From Leucobacter muris (GTDB lineage Bacteria; Actinomycetota; Actinomycetes; Actinomycetales; Microbacteriaceae), in the NCBI RefSeq assembly GCF_004028235.1, contig NZ_CP035037.1:806001-870000 (forward strand): a DNA stretch of 64,000 bases, written 5' to 3'. A program made the position numbers and the translations under genes. This document shows, piece after piece, positions 6,710 through 45,875 of the stretch (the first letter of the stretch is position 1; each line of letters starts with the position of its first letter). The notes under the pieces were generated by a model that was given only the letters and a program-made list of their open reading frames with translations, was not told the DNA's origin and did no database searches.

Positions 6710-7117
6710 ATGTCGCACTATCGGATCCGGGAGGCAGCGCGTCTGATCGGCGTCAGCGATGACACGATCCGCCGCTGGGTGACGCAGGGGCTGCTCGAGG
6801 CGAGCGTCGACGAGGCCGGAGTGCAGGTGATCGAGGGCGCCTCGCTCGCAGGGCGGGCGAAGCAGCTCGCACCGGTCACCGGCGACGACGGCCCGGTGCT
6901 GCGCAGCGCCCGAAACAGTTTCACCGGCATCGTGACGCGGGTCGACGCCGACGGCGTGGTCGCCGTCGTCGAGGCGCAGTGCGGGCCGCACCGCCTCGTG
7001 TCGATCATGACTCGGGAGGCCGTCGACGAGCTCGGCCTCGAGGTCGGTTCGCGCGCCACGGCGATCGTGAAGGCCACCAACGTGATCATCGAGACCCCTC
7101 GGAAGGATGCGGCATGA
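6710..7117 (+). CDS. HTH plus TOBE (Mop-like) molybdenum-binding protein
   Basis: 135 residues. The N-terminal part (residues 1-45, MSHYRIREAARLIGVSDDTIRRWV) is a MerR/excisionase-type helix-turn-helix. Residues about 65-130 (RNSFTGIVTRVDADGVVAVVEAQC...ATAIVKATNVIIE) form a single TOBE/Mop fold that binds molybdate or tungstate. The arrangement resembles a miniature ModE and suggests a molybdate-responsive regulator or storage protein. It overlaps modA by ATGA (7114-7117), so it heads the molybdate transport operon. Regulation of modABC is inferred from context. Confidence 0.85.
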   Translation: MSHYRIREAARLIGVSDDTIRRWVTQGLLEASVDEAGVQVIEGASLAGRAKQLAPVTGDDGPVLRSARNSFTGIVTRVDADGVVAVVEAQCGPHRLVSIMTREAVDELGLEVGSRATAIVKATNVIIETPRKDAA

Positions 7118-8004
7118 ATCCCAAGACGCTCAGAGACGCGACCCGCATCGGCGCGCTCGCACTCGCCGCGGGCCTCGCCGCCGCGCTCGCGGGCTGCGGC
7201 TCGGGCCAGCCGTCGGGGCCCGCGAGCACTCCCGACCCGGCGCCCGCATCGCAGATCGGCGGCGACCTCACCGTCTACGCCGCAGCCTCGCTCGAGCCCG
7301 CCTTCGAACAGATCGGCGACTGGTTCGTCGACGAGCACCCCGACGTGTCGATCGAGTTCTCGTACGACGGCTCCTCGGTGCTCGCCACGCAGATCCTGAG
7401 CGGCGCCCCGGTCGACGTGTTCGCGTCGGCCGACGCGCCGAACATGGAGAAGATCACCTCAGAGGCGCGGAACGACGGCGAGCCCACGGCCTTCGCCGCG
7501 AGCGAGCTCGCGATCGCCGTGGCGCCGGGCAACCCGCTGGGCATCGAGACGCTCGCCGACCTGGCCCGAGCGGGCGCCGGCGCCCCGGTCACCGTGATCT
7601 GCGCGGCGGAGGTGCCCTGCGGCAATGCGTCGCGCGCGCTGCTCGAGCGCGACGGGGTCGAGCTCGCGCCGGCGAGCGAGGAGCAGAACGTGACGGCGGT
7701 GCTCACCAAGGTGCGCGAGGGCGAGGCCGACGCCGGGCTCGTCTACCTCTCCGACATCCTGCGCGCGGGCGATTTTCAGGATGAATCGCGCAGCGATTCA
7801 TCAAATCGACCGCTGACGTCACCACGTCAGGGCGAAGTCGACGGCATCGAGATCCAGGACGCCTCGGACGCCGCCGGCGACTACCTGGCGGTGCCGATCG
7901 AGGGATCCGACGCCCCCGAAGCGGCTGCCGCCTTCTCCGAGTTCCTGCTCACCGACCGCGTGCAGCAGCTCCTCGCAGACCTGGGCTTCGGCCCCGCGCG
8001 CTGA
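7114..8004 (+). CDS. modA: Molybdate ABC transporter substrate-binding lipoprotein (carries a palindromic insertion)
   Basis: 296 residues. A lipoprotein signal ends at the LAGC lipobox (Cys28). The mature protein has the ModA core: DLTVYAAASLEPAFEQI, FSYDGSSVLATQI, PVDVFASADAPNM, and DAGLVYLSDILRAGD. It captures molybdate outside the membrane for ModBC. Where relatives read roughly AGD-x-V-x-GIEI, this protein has about 21 extra residues (near 221-242) encoded by 7774-7836. That segment consists of two perfect inverted repeats and keeps the frame open. The ATG overlaps the previous stop, and modB follows 3 bp after the stop. Confidence 0.93.
   Translation: MNPKTLRDATRIGALALAAGLAAALAGCGSGQPSGPASTPDPAPASQIGGDLTVYAAASLEPAFEQIGDWFVDEHPDVSIEFSYDGSSVLATQILSGAPVDVFASADAPNMEKITSEARNDGEPTAFAASELAIAVAPGNPLGIETLADLARAGAGAPVTVICAAEVPCGNASRALLERDGVELAPASEEQNVTAVLTKVREGEADAGLVYLSDILRAGDFQDESRSDSSNRPLTSPRQGEVDGIEIQDASDAAGDYLAVPIEGSDAPEAAAAFSEFLLTDRVQQLLADLGFGPAR
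7780..7830 (+). repeat. Double palindrome inserted in frame within modA
   Basis: Arm GATGAATCGC (7780-7789) and its perfect complement GCGATTCATC (7793-7802) enclose three bases. Ten bases later CTGACGT (7813-7819) and ACGTCAG (7824-7830) enclose four. The segment is less GC-rich than its surroundings and falls where the ModA family has no residues. This looks like a small palindromic element that entered the gene without breaking the frame. Confidence 0.8.
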
Positions 8005-23772: not shown

Positions 23773-23797
23773 GCTGCTCCTCGAGTTCGTGGTGTGC

Positions 23798-23857
23798 GCC
23801 GAGAGGCGGATTCTGCCGCGGGATCGTCAGATGCTGCGGCGAAATCCACCTCTCGGC
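23798..23857. repeat. 60-bp inverted-repeat element (copy 1)
   Basis: Arms GCCGAGAGGCGGATT (23798-23812) and AATCCACCTCTCGGC (23843-23857) pair with one mismatch around a 30-base centre. It sits in the 134-bp gap between the ThDP enzyme gene and the transporter gene. The same arm core, CGAGAGGCGGAT, recurs at 36433-36490. Confidence 0.75.
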
Positions 23858-23906
23858 CGGGGTGAGGCGGGTGGTGCGGGTGGGGGAGCCCCGGGGGGAG
23901 CCGCGG

Positions 23907-25268
23907 TCAGCGGGTCTCGGGGTCCCGCGTGTCGATCGCGGTGGTGTCGAGACGCGGCGTGAAGGAGCCGGTGACCGGGGCCGCGTCGGAGTGCTGCGGT
24001 GCGAAGCGCACGCCGATGAACGCCGCGAGCGCGAGCACGCCGAAGAACCCGACGACCGACCAGAAGTTGCCGTCGGTCACGATGAGCAGGGTGGAGGCGA
24101 TCGCGGGTGAGAGGCCGCCCCAGACCGCGGCGCCGATGCCGTAGGAGAGCGACATCGAGGTGTAGCGCGACTGGGGGCGGAACATCTGCGCCATGAGGGT
24201 CGAGAGGGGCGCCCAGGCGCCGCTCAGCGTGACGCGGATCAGGATGACGAACAGCCAGATCAGCGCCACGTTCTTCGCCTGGATCGACATCACCAGCGGG
24301 ATGATGACGAGGCACGACGGGATAATGCCGAGGTACATGACGGCCTTCGGCCCGATCTTGTCGCCGAGCGCGGCGATCGGCAGCGTCACGATGAGCTCGA
24401 CGAGCGAGGCGATCGTCATGGCGCCGAGGATGATGGACGGGTCGAGGCCGATCTCGGGGGTGTCGGCGTAGTTCTGCACGAAGGTCGTGGCGATCACGTA
24501 GCCGCCCGACGACATCGCGATGATGCAGAAGCCGAGCAGGATCGGCAGCCAGTTGTTCTTGAGCGCGAACAGCAGCGGCGTCGACTGCTCCTGCCCCTCG
24601 ATCTTCGCCTCGAACACGGGGGTCTCCTCGACGCGGTAGCGCACCCAGAAGCCGACGCCGATGAGCACGATGCTGAAGAGGAACGGCACGCGCCACCCCC
24701 AGCTCAGCAGGGCGTCCTCGCCCAGCGCAGAGAGGGCCCAGAACGCGCCGGTGGCCATCATGGCGCCGAGGGGGTTGCCCACCTGCGTGAAGCCGCCGTA
24801 GAACGTCTTCCACTTGGCGGGTGCGCTCTCGACGGCCATGAGGCTCGCGCCGCCCCACTCGCCGCCGACGGCGAGGCCCTGGGCCATGCGGCACAGGATG
24901 AGCAGGATCGGGCCCCAGATGCCGATGGTCGCGTAGCCGGGCAGCACGCCGACGAGGGTCGTGGCGACGCCCATGAGGATCAGGGTGATGGTGAGGGCGG
25001 GCTTGCGGCCGAGCTTGTCGCCGACGTGACCGAAGATGATGCCGCCGATCGGCCGCATGAAGAAGGCCACGGCGTAGGTGCCGAAGGAGGCGAGTGTCGC
25101 GAGCGCCGGGTCGGCTTCGGGGAAGAACACGTGCGGGAAGATGATCGCCGCCGCGGTCGCGTAGACGTAGAAGTCGTACCACTCGATCGAGGTGCCGACG
25201 AGGGCGGCCATGCCGCCTCTCAGCGCGCGCCTGTGGGAGTTCGGCGCGGCGGCCGTCGATGTGGACAT
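23907..25268 (-). CDS. MHS-family (MFS) metabolite:proton symporter
   Basis: 453 residues with twelve hydrophobic segments. The N-terminus GGMAALVGTSIEWYDFYVYATAA and the loop GHVGDKLGRKPAL are hallmarks of the metabolite:H+ symporter branch (ShiA, ProP, KgtP relatives), which import carboxylates or zwitterions. AAAGGAG lies just before the ATG. It is placed between the ThDP/dehydrogenase pair and an amidohydrolase gene, so it probably imports their substrate. Substrate unknown. Confidence 0.9.
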   Translation of the reverse strand: MSTSTAAAPNSHRRALRGGMAALVGTSIEWYDFYVYATAAAIIFPHVFFPEADPALATLASFGTYAVAFFMRPIGGIIFGHVGDKLGRKPALTITLILMGVATTLVGVLPGYATIGIWGPILLILCRMAQGLAVGGEWGGASLMAVESAPAKWKTFYGGFTQVGNPLGAMMATGAFWALSALGEDALLSWGWRVPFLFSIVLIGVGFWVRYRVEETPVFEAKIEGQEQSTPLLFALKNNWLPILLGFCIIAMSSGGYVIATTFVQNYADTPEIGLDPSIILGAMTIASLVELIVTLPIAALGDKIGPKAVMYLGIIPSCLVIIPLVMSIQAKNVALIWLFVILIRVTLSGAWAPLSTLMAQMFRPQSRYTSMSLSYGIGAAVWGGLSPAIASTLLIVTDGNFWSVVGFFGVLALAAFIGVRFAPQHSDAAPVTGSFTPRLDTTAIDTRDPETR

Positions 25269-34981: not shown

Positions 34982-34998
34982 CGGACCCGCCCCGAGGT

Positions 34999-35025
34999 CG
35001 TCGAGGAGCGCGGTTCTCCTCGACG
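34999..35025 (+). terminator. Hairpin after mycothione reductase
   Basis: CGTCGAGGAG pairs with CTCCTCGACG over a seven-base loop, 18 bp after the stop. No U-run. May act bidirectionally with the repeats that follow, because the next gene converges. Confidence 0.5.
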
Positions 35026-35041
35026 GGGCGGCCGTATCCGC

Positions 35042-35098
35042 TCCCCGAGCCCGTCGAAGGGGCAGGGCGCGCCCCGTTCCCCGAGCCTGCCGAAGGGG
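35042..35098. repeat. Two copies of a TCCCCGAGC-YG-CGAAGGGG repeat
   Basis: TCCCCGAGCCCGTCGAAGGGG (35042-35062) and a copy with two changes at 35078-35098, spaced 36 bp apart. Each has CCCC and GGGG ends that can pair. Similar short repeats are known between convergent actinobacterial genes; the gap separates convergent mtr and NUDIX genes. Confidence 0.65.
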
Positions 35099-35137
35099 GC
35101 GGCGGTTGCCTGCGACGTGCTCAGGGAGCGCGGGCGC

Positions 35138-35557
35138 TCAGCCCGCGAGCAGCGCCGGAAACACGAAGTCGGTGTTGAGGGGCGCCATATCGGCGCGCTC
35201 GGCCGACGGATGCACCCACTCGAGGTGCTCGATCTCGGCCCGGGGCTCCGCCGTGGCGGCCGCCGTGACGAGCGGGTGCTCGAACACCGAGGCTTCGACG
35301 GTGTGGCCGGGCTCGTTCGCCGCCACGGCCCGGAACACGCCCAGCTCGCGCAGCCGATCCCGGTCGAGCGCGATCCCGAGCTCCTCCTCGAACTCCCGCA
35401 CGGCGGTGTCGCGAGGATCCTCGCCCGCCTCGTGCTTGCCGCCCGGCAGCATGAGCGAGCCGGTGCCCCGCTTGCGCACGTTGAGCACGCGGCCGGACTC
35501 GTCGCGCATCACGACGGCGCTCACGCGGATGAGGAGGGTCTCTGCTGCAGCGGTCAC
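35138..35557 (-). CDS. NUDIX hydrolase
   Basis: 139 residues from GTG. The Nudix box G-x5-E-x7-REUXEE-x-G-U spans residues 40-62 (starting GKHEAGEDPRD and ending REFEEELGI), with all catalytic acids present. Hydrolyses a nucleoside diphosphate derivative; substrate unknown. Start supported by TAGGCT six bases upstream. Confidence 0.9.
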   Translation of the reverse strand: MTAAAETLLIRVSAVVMRDESGRVLNVRKRGTGSLMLPGGKHEAGEDPRDTAVREFEEELGIALDRDRLRELGVFRAVAANEPGHTVEASVFEHPLVTAAATAEPRAEIEHLEWVHPSAERADMAPLNTDFVFPALLAG

Positions 35558-36376: not shown

Positions 36377-36432
36377 TGCGGTGCCGCGGTCGCGAGCCTC
36401 GACGTCCGTGGCCCGTGCCGCCCGCATACTCG

Positions 36433-36490
36433 GCGAGAGGCGGATTTCGCATGCTTCTTGGGGTGCTGGGCTGCAAGATCCGCCTCTCGC
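36433..36490. repeat. 58-bp inverted-repeat element (copy 2)
   Basis: GCGAGAGGCGGAT (36433-36445) pairs perfectly with ATCCGCCTCTCGC (36478-36490) around a 32-base centre. The arm core is the same as in the element at 23798-23857, and total lengths agree (58 and 60 bp) while the centres differ. It lies between the divergent carboxypeptidase and CapA-like genes, about 30 bp upstream of the latter's predicted -10 box. Confidence 0.75.
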
Positions 36491-36522
36491 GTGGGTGGGG
36501 AGGGAGGGCCTGCCGCACCGCA

Positions 36523-45754: not shown

Positions 45755-45765
45755 GCCGACCCCAC

Positions 45766-45837
45766 CCCGTCCTCCCGCTCGCAGTCGCGGGATCCCGAGC
45801 AGCCGCCGCGTAAGCCGCGACTGCTCGGGATGACGGG
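45766..45837. repeat. Complex inverted repeat between rpoB and rpoC
   Basis: Outer arms 45766-45777 and 45826-45837 pair 11 of 12. Inner arms GCAGTCGCGG (45781-45790) and CCGCGACTGC (45815-45824) pair perfectly. A competing hairpin ATCCCGAGCAG (45792-45802) with CTGCTCGGGAT (45821-45831) uses overlapping bases, so the two folds exclude each other. It occupies the middle of the 121-bp gap. Confidence 0.75.
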
Positions 45838-45875
45838 GGCCACAGACTTACAGTTTCCATCCCAAGGAGAACATT

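Follow-up and report, generated by a model that had tools for sequence, protein, structure and literature searches.

The modA gene and its palindromic insert

The window, as the whole 64-kb stretch of Leucobacter DNA analysed is called here, encodes a molybdate ABC transporter substrate-binding protein of 296 residues (modA, 7114..8004, + strand). The product is assigned to TIGR01256 (modA) with 87.2 bits, above the cut-off of 62.5, and is also matched by PF13531. The gene contains a palindromic insert through which the reading frame stays open, as a sequence-only reading of the same DNA had stated; the two perfect inverted repeats described there, 10-3-10 and 7-4-7, are both exact.

The first palindrome, with inner arms at 7780-7789 and 7793-7802 around an apical loop at 7790-7792, is the tip of a long hairpin continued by outer arms of 11 nt with one mismatch (7765-7775 and 7803-7813), the first 4 nt of the 5' outer arm being host sequence. 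An asymmetric bulge, TCAG, lies at 7776-7779. Stop codons are often found near the level of this bulge in copies at gene ends, and the apical loop is the site of whole nested elements in some other copies. The second hairpin (7813-7830) is formed by the 7-4-7 palindrome, with arms at 7813-7819 and 7824-7830, and its loop CACC (7820-7823) is part of a CCAC/CACC motif common in the family described below. Since the outer arms extend the first palindrome, the unit is delimited as 7765-7830 on the + strand; the palindromic unit first proposed at 7771-7836 is thus real, with its limits revised. The whole unit is matched by two covariance models, both built from or with the modA copy, and includes host bases, 4 at its 5' side and 2 at its 3' side.

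The inserted segment itself comprises 60 nt or 20 codons. The alignment of ModA orthologues that had been suggested for fixing its borders reveals a 20-residue insertion best placed at 7769-7828 (+ strand), with proteins P0002, P0003 and P0004 lacking exactly 20 residues; we infer these borders on the condition that the lost Glu codon was GAG. By itself, the 6-nt direct repeat GGGCGA, with its 5' member at 7767-7772 and its 3' member at 7830-7835 (+ strand), is not significant. It was rejected as a target-site duplication, its best local score being 8.0 against a control mean of 7.46.

The insert is AT-rich (53% GC against 72%), and an equally low GC content is found in 0.6% of the 60-mers of the window. 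By chance, the exact modA palindrome pattern would occur 0.02 times per window when as many as 3 mismatches are allowed. The 64-kb window has 18 perfect hairpins with arms of at least 9 and loops of 3-8, so that a perfect hairpin alone is unremarkable; the modA hairpin coincides with a lineage-specific AT-rich insertion. RNA folding of 7760-7850 gave z = -2.24.

Alleles with and without the insert have been identified in the protein database. P0002 (276 aa, 98% identity in the alignment) reads LRA-E-GEVDG where the window ModA reads LRA-GDFQDESRSDSSNRPLTSPRQ-GEVDG, a net gain of 20 residues, and P0003 and P0004 also have no insert. The insert is present in P0001, a protein of 296 aa with 8 member sequences and 19 contigs, which differs from the window ModA at three residues, hence more than one sequence variant has it. 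A ModA match at E<=1e-20 was obtained in 34 of the 53 other genomes of the genus, and 29 of those loci were aligned. The insert site is a gap in all 29 rows, of 20 columns in 28 and of 21 in one (L033). The earlier observation that ModA relatives have no residues here is confirmed by these rows and by P0002, and its estimate of about 21 extra residues is corrected to a net 20, the 21-column gap being seen in L033 only. Judging from these sequences, the insertion is recent and polymorphic, being present in P0001 and missing from the near-identical P0002.

The AlphaFold2 model of ModA (57 alignment rows) has a mean pLDDT of 86.3. Residues 221-240 have a pLDDT of about 50, with a 3-residue helical turn as their sole structure, and the region is flanked by a helix (212-220) and a strand (243-246). 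The best Foldseek matches of the model are molybdate-binding or related proteins. The fold is therefore predicted to be intact despite the insert, the 20 added residues probably forming a flexible loop.

A search of the own genome with the insert (blastn) recovered itself and two further hits, whose E values are 1.4 and 2.6. The palindrome as a 23-mer, allowing up to 3 mismatches, was found there once, in modA. A recurrence of the same palindrome elsewhere in the genome, named earlier as the condition for a mobile element, is thus not borne out by sequence. Among 150 genomes of the family, blastn gave the insert itself and three weak matches to its second half (E 0.0016-0.0099, approximately the chance level); among 396 genomes of the order it gave only the insert itself. 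Phages yielded 3 matches, all at E 9, plasmids 24 records with E of at least 2 among the matches listed, and E. coli no match. A scan for the palindrome pattern gave 0 matches in viral contigs and, among 84,980 species genomes, 9 that are dispersed across unrelated phyla and were read as chance; two further 18-mers had 5 and 0 matches in viral contigs. GAATCGCNNNGCGATTC occurs once exactly in the own genome and at 28 places with 2 mismatches, which was judged to be background.

Within the genus, 14 of 54 genomes have a match to the 23-mer when up to 3 mismatches are allowed, with flanks unlike each other by eye. Some of these matches (G045:C94, G046:C172, G047:C1:280084, G049:1630161) are family members according to the later model. 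An identical repeated palindrome was rejected on the sequence searches, before a covariance model revealed the family. The best identity of the modA unit to the other copies compared is 76%, and no similar donor copy was found. By sequence alone the insert would have passed for a one-off. The sequence searches of this analysis missed the family because its sequence turns over, and it took a covariance model to recognise it.

A family of two-hairpin units in Leucobacter

With the modA copy as its sole input, a covariance model identified only this copy in its own genome and gave full-length matches in 19 of the 53 other genomes of the genus at E<=0.1, the best at E 1.2e-9. In total there are 41 matches, spread over 20 of the 54 genomes, and the modA copy accounts for two of these, one per strand. 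The window and 33 fetched loci, 34 sources together, yielded 38 matches at E<=0.0004. These form an alignment (A4) that was derived from one of 45 rows (A3) by removing 7 rows above E 0.0004, namely two opposite-strand shadows and five weaker same-strand matches. In A4, 95.5% of the pair cells pair, a figure inflated by the fitting of the alignment to the structure model. Changes on both sides are observed in 25 of 26 pairs, compared with a mean of 17 in shuffled and 13-16 in slid versions, and the covariation is 0.684 against 0.187 shuffled and 0.07-0.11 slid.

The model was retrained, with modA as the only training copy from the own genome. It identifies 7 copies there at E<=1e-3 (13 candidates scored) and 11 at E<=0.01 (150 candidates scored), ten of the latter being outside the training set. 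Genomes G049 and G002 encode 16 and 17 copies at E<=0.01. Across 398 genomes of the family at least nine match at E<=1e-3, seven of Leucobacter including the own genome and two of other genera, and the negatives of this search are weak because 13 candidates per genome were scored. At E<=0.01, the 96 loci collected (603 kb) contain 114 matches, including some opposite-strand shadows, few in number. None was found in 17 stretches of G049 and G039 (330 kb) picked for synteny and not for matches. Against Rfam 15, 7650-7950 had no match at an E of 1 or lower, and 10 of the first 33 loci fetched had none at an E of 0.1 or lower.

G-U pairs exceed A-C mismatches by 102 to 49 in alignment A5, 35 to 16 in A4 and 19 to 4 in A6, the alignment of copies at DUF4193 gene ends, although the covariance model itself favours G-U, and A5 and A6 together include seven opposite-strand shadow rows, which are also counted in the stop-codon, context and direct-repeat figures given below. 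The unit measures about 60-66 nt, or about 80-89 nt with a spacer module. Similar copies at two separate sites of G049 (2205749 and 2706386) are 92% identical, with flanks at 70% and 68%. Two adjacent hairpins with a bulge, compensatory changes and multicopy dispersal are thus all found with the two models, and it is established that the modA insert is a member of a multicopy Leucobacter family with conserved structure and sequence turnover. A literature search found no description of this hairpin family, which does not prove that none exists.

Single matches to the retrained model have been identified in two other genera (G099 and G678, E 1.2e-5; L151:1501-1564 and L152:1501-1572). The upstream context of L151 is common to L149, L156 and L209, so the family may predate the genus. 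G020 has three copies of a shorter variant (L146:928-983, 1032-1087 and 1139-1194) at a spacing of about 105 nt. Two copies of G025, L130 and L133, are 87% identical and both follow a GATTGAGCGAG-like sequence, possibly as a composite with another repeat.

A same-strand stop codon is found inside the element in 42 of 129 distinct contexts compared with 5 antisense, where every orthologue and every array unit counts as a context of its own, as do a few shadows on the opposite strand. The 42 contexts come from 42 of 87 loci, and the offsets of the stop within the element recur, 8, 12 and 17 nt most often. In the own genome, copies are situated at the ends of ribose-phosphate pyrophosphokinase (Prs), YceI-like and DUF3040 genes; a nested pair lies at the DUF4193 gene end, and tRNA-Thr has a unit on its 3' side. 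The Prs and DUF4193 end sites are common to several species, hence part of the distribution reflects inheritance and not movement. Two identical copies in G014 (L163:1501-1566 and 1658-1723) lie 157 nt apart, each followed by tRNA T-arm-like sequence; ARAGORN called no tRNA at these copies.

In-frame copies have also been identified in the phosphoglucomutase (Pgm) of G005, where 19 residues are missing from the aligned PDB homologue, and in the HrpA helicase of G026, in which 33 residues (339-371) separate aligned blocks that are one residue apart in the PDB HrpA. Besides ModA, the comparison of filled proteins with homologues covers Pgm and HrpA. In GrpE (G005, G049) and ParB (G047), an open frame runs through an element in the N-terminal region, outside the Pfam-matched domains; the peptide DESRSDSS is encoded both in the modA copy and in the GrpE copy of G049. 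A frame is open through the element in 9 sense and 10 antisense contexts of the 129. As openness is no rarer antisense, an open frame alone is no proof of translation, and the cases within proteins rest on homologues. Of the 9 sense contexts, L195 and L238 account for three and L143 for one, and the rule applied misses modA because only 57 codons follow its element. Copies in L153 and L125 lie within long opposite-strand open frames and are possibly antisense insertions in genes.

The DUF4193 gene is present in all 54 genomes. One or more units follow or cross its stop codon in 17 of the 30 loci read and none in 13, the eye and the model being in agreement; one of the 17 filled loci, that of G032, is weak by the model (E 0.0067). 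The protein has 95-96 residues and ends with P(I/V)C(A/R)EC and one or two residues, in filled and empty loci alike. The 5' arm of the hairpin at this site is therefore host coding sequence, and its 3' arm is, by eye, complementary to the 5' arm version of the same species. Among the copies of this site (A6, three shadow rows included) 23 of 26 pairs covary, with a covariation of 0.448 compared with 0.135 in shuffled alignments. G016, which is empty, and G032, which is filled, are near-identical apart from 89 nt at this site, of which 28 nt repeat the gene end. The difference could be a gain, or a loss by recombination.

Tandem arrays are found with units of about 60 nt (L114, L115, L119, L131, L132) and with units of about 75-84 nt that have a spacer module (L204-L206). 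Array units are alike within one genome; in L115 hairpin 2 is wholly different between adjacent units. A spacer module like CCCACGGAGCGAAGCGCGGGGTGG is seen between units or at borders, in either orientation, in L204, L205, L206 and L188, and also beside L179, L186, L189 and L153; it is probably a third hairpin module. Unit 2 of L147 agrees with unit 1 apart from a foreign element in its apical loop. Nesting in the apical loop was recognised by eye also in L169 and its G049 orthologue L191, and in L183. Strong downstream direct repeats (local score of at least 14) occur at 34 of 96 first or only units, many of them arrays, compared with a fraction of 0.018 in mismatched controls. The modA copy is at the control level (8.0 against 7.5) in the MITE-type test for a target-site duplication.

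Comparison with known palindromic systems

The palindromic elements of Rickettsia (RPEs), known from in-frame copies in proteins, are given in the source text as about 150 bp in length with a conserved peptide (PMC10969869). The Leucobacter elements resemble them in being palindromic and in frame in unrelated protein genes, as seen for ModA, Pgm and HrpA against their homologues. They differ in their length of 60-66 nt, their two hairpins and their lack of a conserved sequence. By eye, a common pattern is visible in the element peptides of ModA, Pgm, ParB and GrpE, but HrpA uses another frame. A kinship of the modA element with RPEs, raised by the sequence-only reading, finds support in no tested feature: the likeness is one of behaviour, and neither the length of about 150 bp nor the conserved peptide is found.

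GTAG and CGTC REPs are described as palindromes of 20-40 bp with an unpaired GTAG or CGTC tag, the CGTC type having a stem of 8-9 bp and a loop of 4-5 nt, and intragenic REP dimers or groups are stated to encode 20-30 residues (Di Nocera et al. 2013, PMC3733652). As given in the same source, REPs are like the Leucobacter elements short and dispersed, frequently follow genes, in some cases provide the stop codon and in some are intragenic; its main text does not have the words Actinobacteria, Leucobacter or Microbacteri-. By eye, no terminal unpaired GTAG tag is present in the listed Leucobacter copies, the CGTC of the modA copy is paired in hairpin 2, in contrast to the CGTC REPs, and many copies have no CGTC. 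RPEs, GTAG REPs and CGTC REPs are thus each set apart from the Leucobacter elements by defining features that these lack, although the behaviour is like that of RPEs and intragenic REPs.

Two further systems are comparable in form. REPIN or BIME arrays consist of paired hairpins in tandem that are non-autonomous and mobilised by RAYT. The Leucobacter units share the paired hairpins and the arrays, but REPINs are sequence families whereas here mainly the fold is conserved. Integron attC sites conserve structure rather than sequence, have an asymmetric bulge and measure about 60 nt. Their R and L boxes (GTTRRRY / RYYYAAC) are at the base of the hairpin, whereas the best-conserved Leucobacter pairs are near the tip and in hairpin 2, not in attC-style end boxes.

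Origin and spread of the copies

We consider it probable that the modA insert arose recently, as an in-frame copy from a family of small two-hairpin elements that occurs across Leucobacter and has spread as mobile DNA. We infer mobility from the polymorphic modA copy, the nested copies and the dispersed copies, nesting at the tip being the best sign here that whole units move. The earlier proposal of a mobile element that tolerates coding sites is largely supported by the dispersed multicopy occurrence and by the in-frame coding copies; its palindrome is not repeated by sequence. The copies would be non-autonomous hairpin DNA that is moved in trans, probably via single-stranded DNA. Sites at which a copy only lengthens a flexible loop, or coincides with a stop codon, would tolerate it. 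Existing copies may expand and contract as tandem arrays through recombination or slippage between direct repeats. The absence of a convincing target-site duplication and of a similar donor (best 76%) for the modA copy counts against mobility, and the host-coded 5' arm at DUF4193 is odd for a self-contained mobile element.

It is possible, though we hold it only tentatively, that the units act as functional RNA at the 3' ends of genes (stabilising the mRNA, or signalling its processing or termination) and are maintained by selection, with the modA copy being a product of illegitimate recombination. The excess of stop codons on the same strand (42 of 129 contexts against 5) and the retained pairing at DUF4193 ends (0.448 against 0.135, A6 with its three shadow rows) agree with such a role, as does the excess of G-U over A-C (102 to 49 in A5), though the model favours G-U. 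The 13 of 30 DUF4193 loci read that have no element speak against it, together with the copies that are nested, in arrays or in frame inside proteins, the low copy number and the lack of an Rfam match. Given the bias towards the sense strand, a role of the RNA at gene ends is conceivable, and the G-U excess leans likewise.

Local mutation is an unlikely source of the whole family. Fold-back template switching would turn the end of a gene into an inverted repeat and quasi-palindrome correction would match its arms, with no mobile element involved. Such a process would suit the DUF4193 copies, in which the 5' arm consists of host codons and the 3' arm complements the species' own version by eye, as well as the wholly different hairpin 2 of neighbouring units in L115 and the resemblance of array units within a genome. 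Alone it leaves unexplained the bulge, CCAC-type loop and hairpin order shared at unrelated loci, the nested copies, and the AT-rich modA insert with no evident local source. The host-coded 5' arm, the L115 difference and the likeness within arrays leave room for template-switch mutation, and this process and an RNA role are both compatible with mobility.

A mobile element templated by structure, whose constant core is the tip and the CCAC-loop hairpin while the remaining hairpin is built from host sequence, is a doubtful proposal. If it is true, the 3' arm of each copy would be the complement of its gene end, and the transposable unit would be a fold, half of its stem being host and its own apical loops its preferred targets. 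That the modA insert is a one-off foreign or random fragment with palindromes by chance is very improbable, as the want of any significant sequence match in phages, plasmids, E. coli, 150 family and 396 order genomes and the 9 scattered pattern matches in 84,980 species genomes, which would suit it, are outweighed by full-length structural matches across the genus and strong covariation that contradict it.

If the two-hairpin elements are mobile, in-frame palindromic elongation of proteins extends from Rickettsia and the REP-bearing phyla to a genus of Actinomycetota. The polymorphic modA insertion, the nested copies whose array also has an empty sister unit and the near-identical filled and empty species would then provide a testable system. 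The family also suggests that other genomes may hold repeats defined by shape that are missed by sequence-based annotation.

Comparison of the window with syntenic G049 revealed no second in-frame palindromic insert of two-hairpin form. Other repeats are present. A 10-7-10 hairpin lies in a gap between the window and G049 at 34982-35145. Two regions that are longer than in G049 (23774-23928 and 36377-36518) have a common GAGAGGCGGATT motif with inverted counterparts and look like another REP-like family. A segment of 84 nt at 45759-45842, represented by 3 nt in G049, is rich in inverted repeats around CCCGAGCAG.
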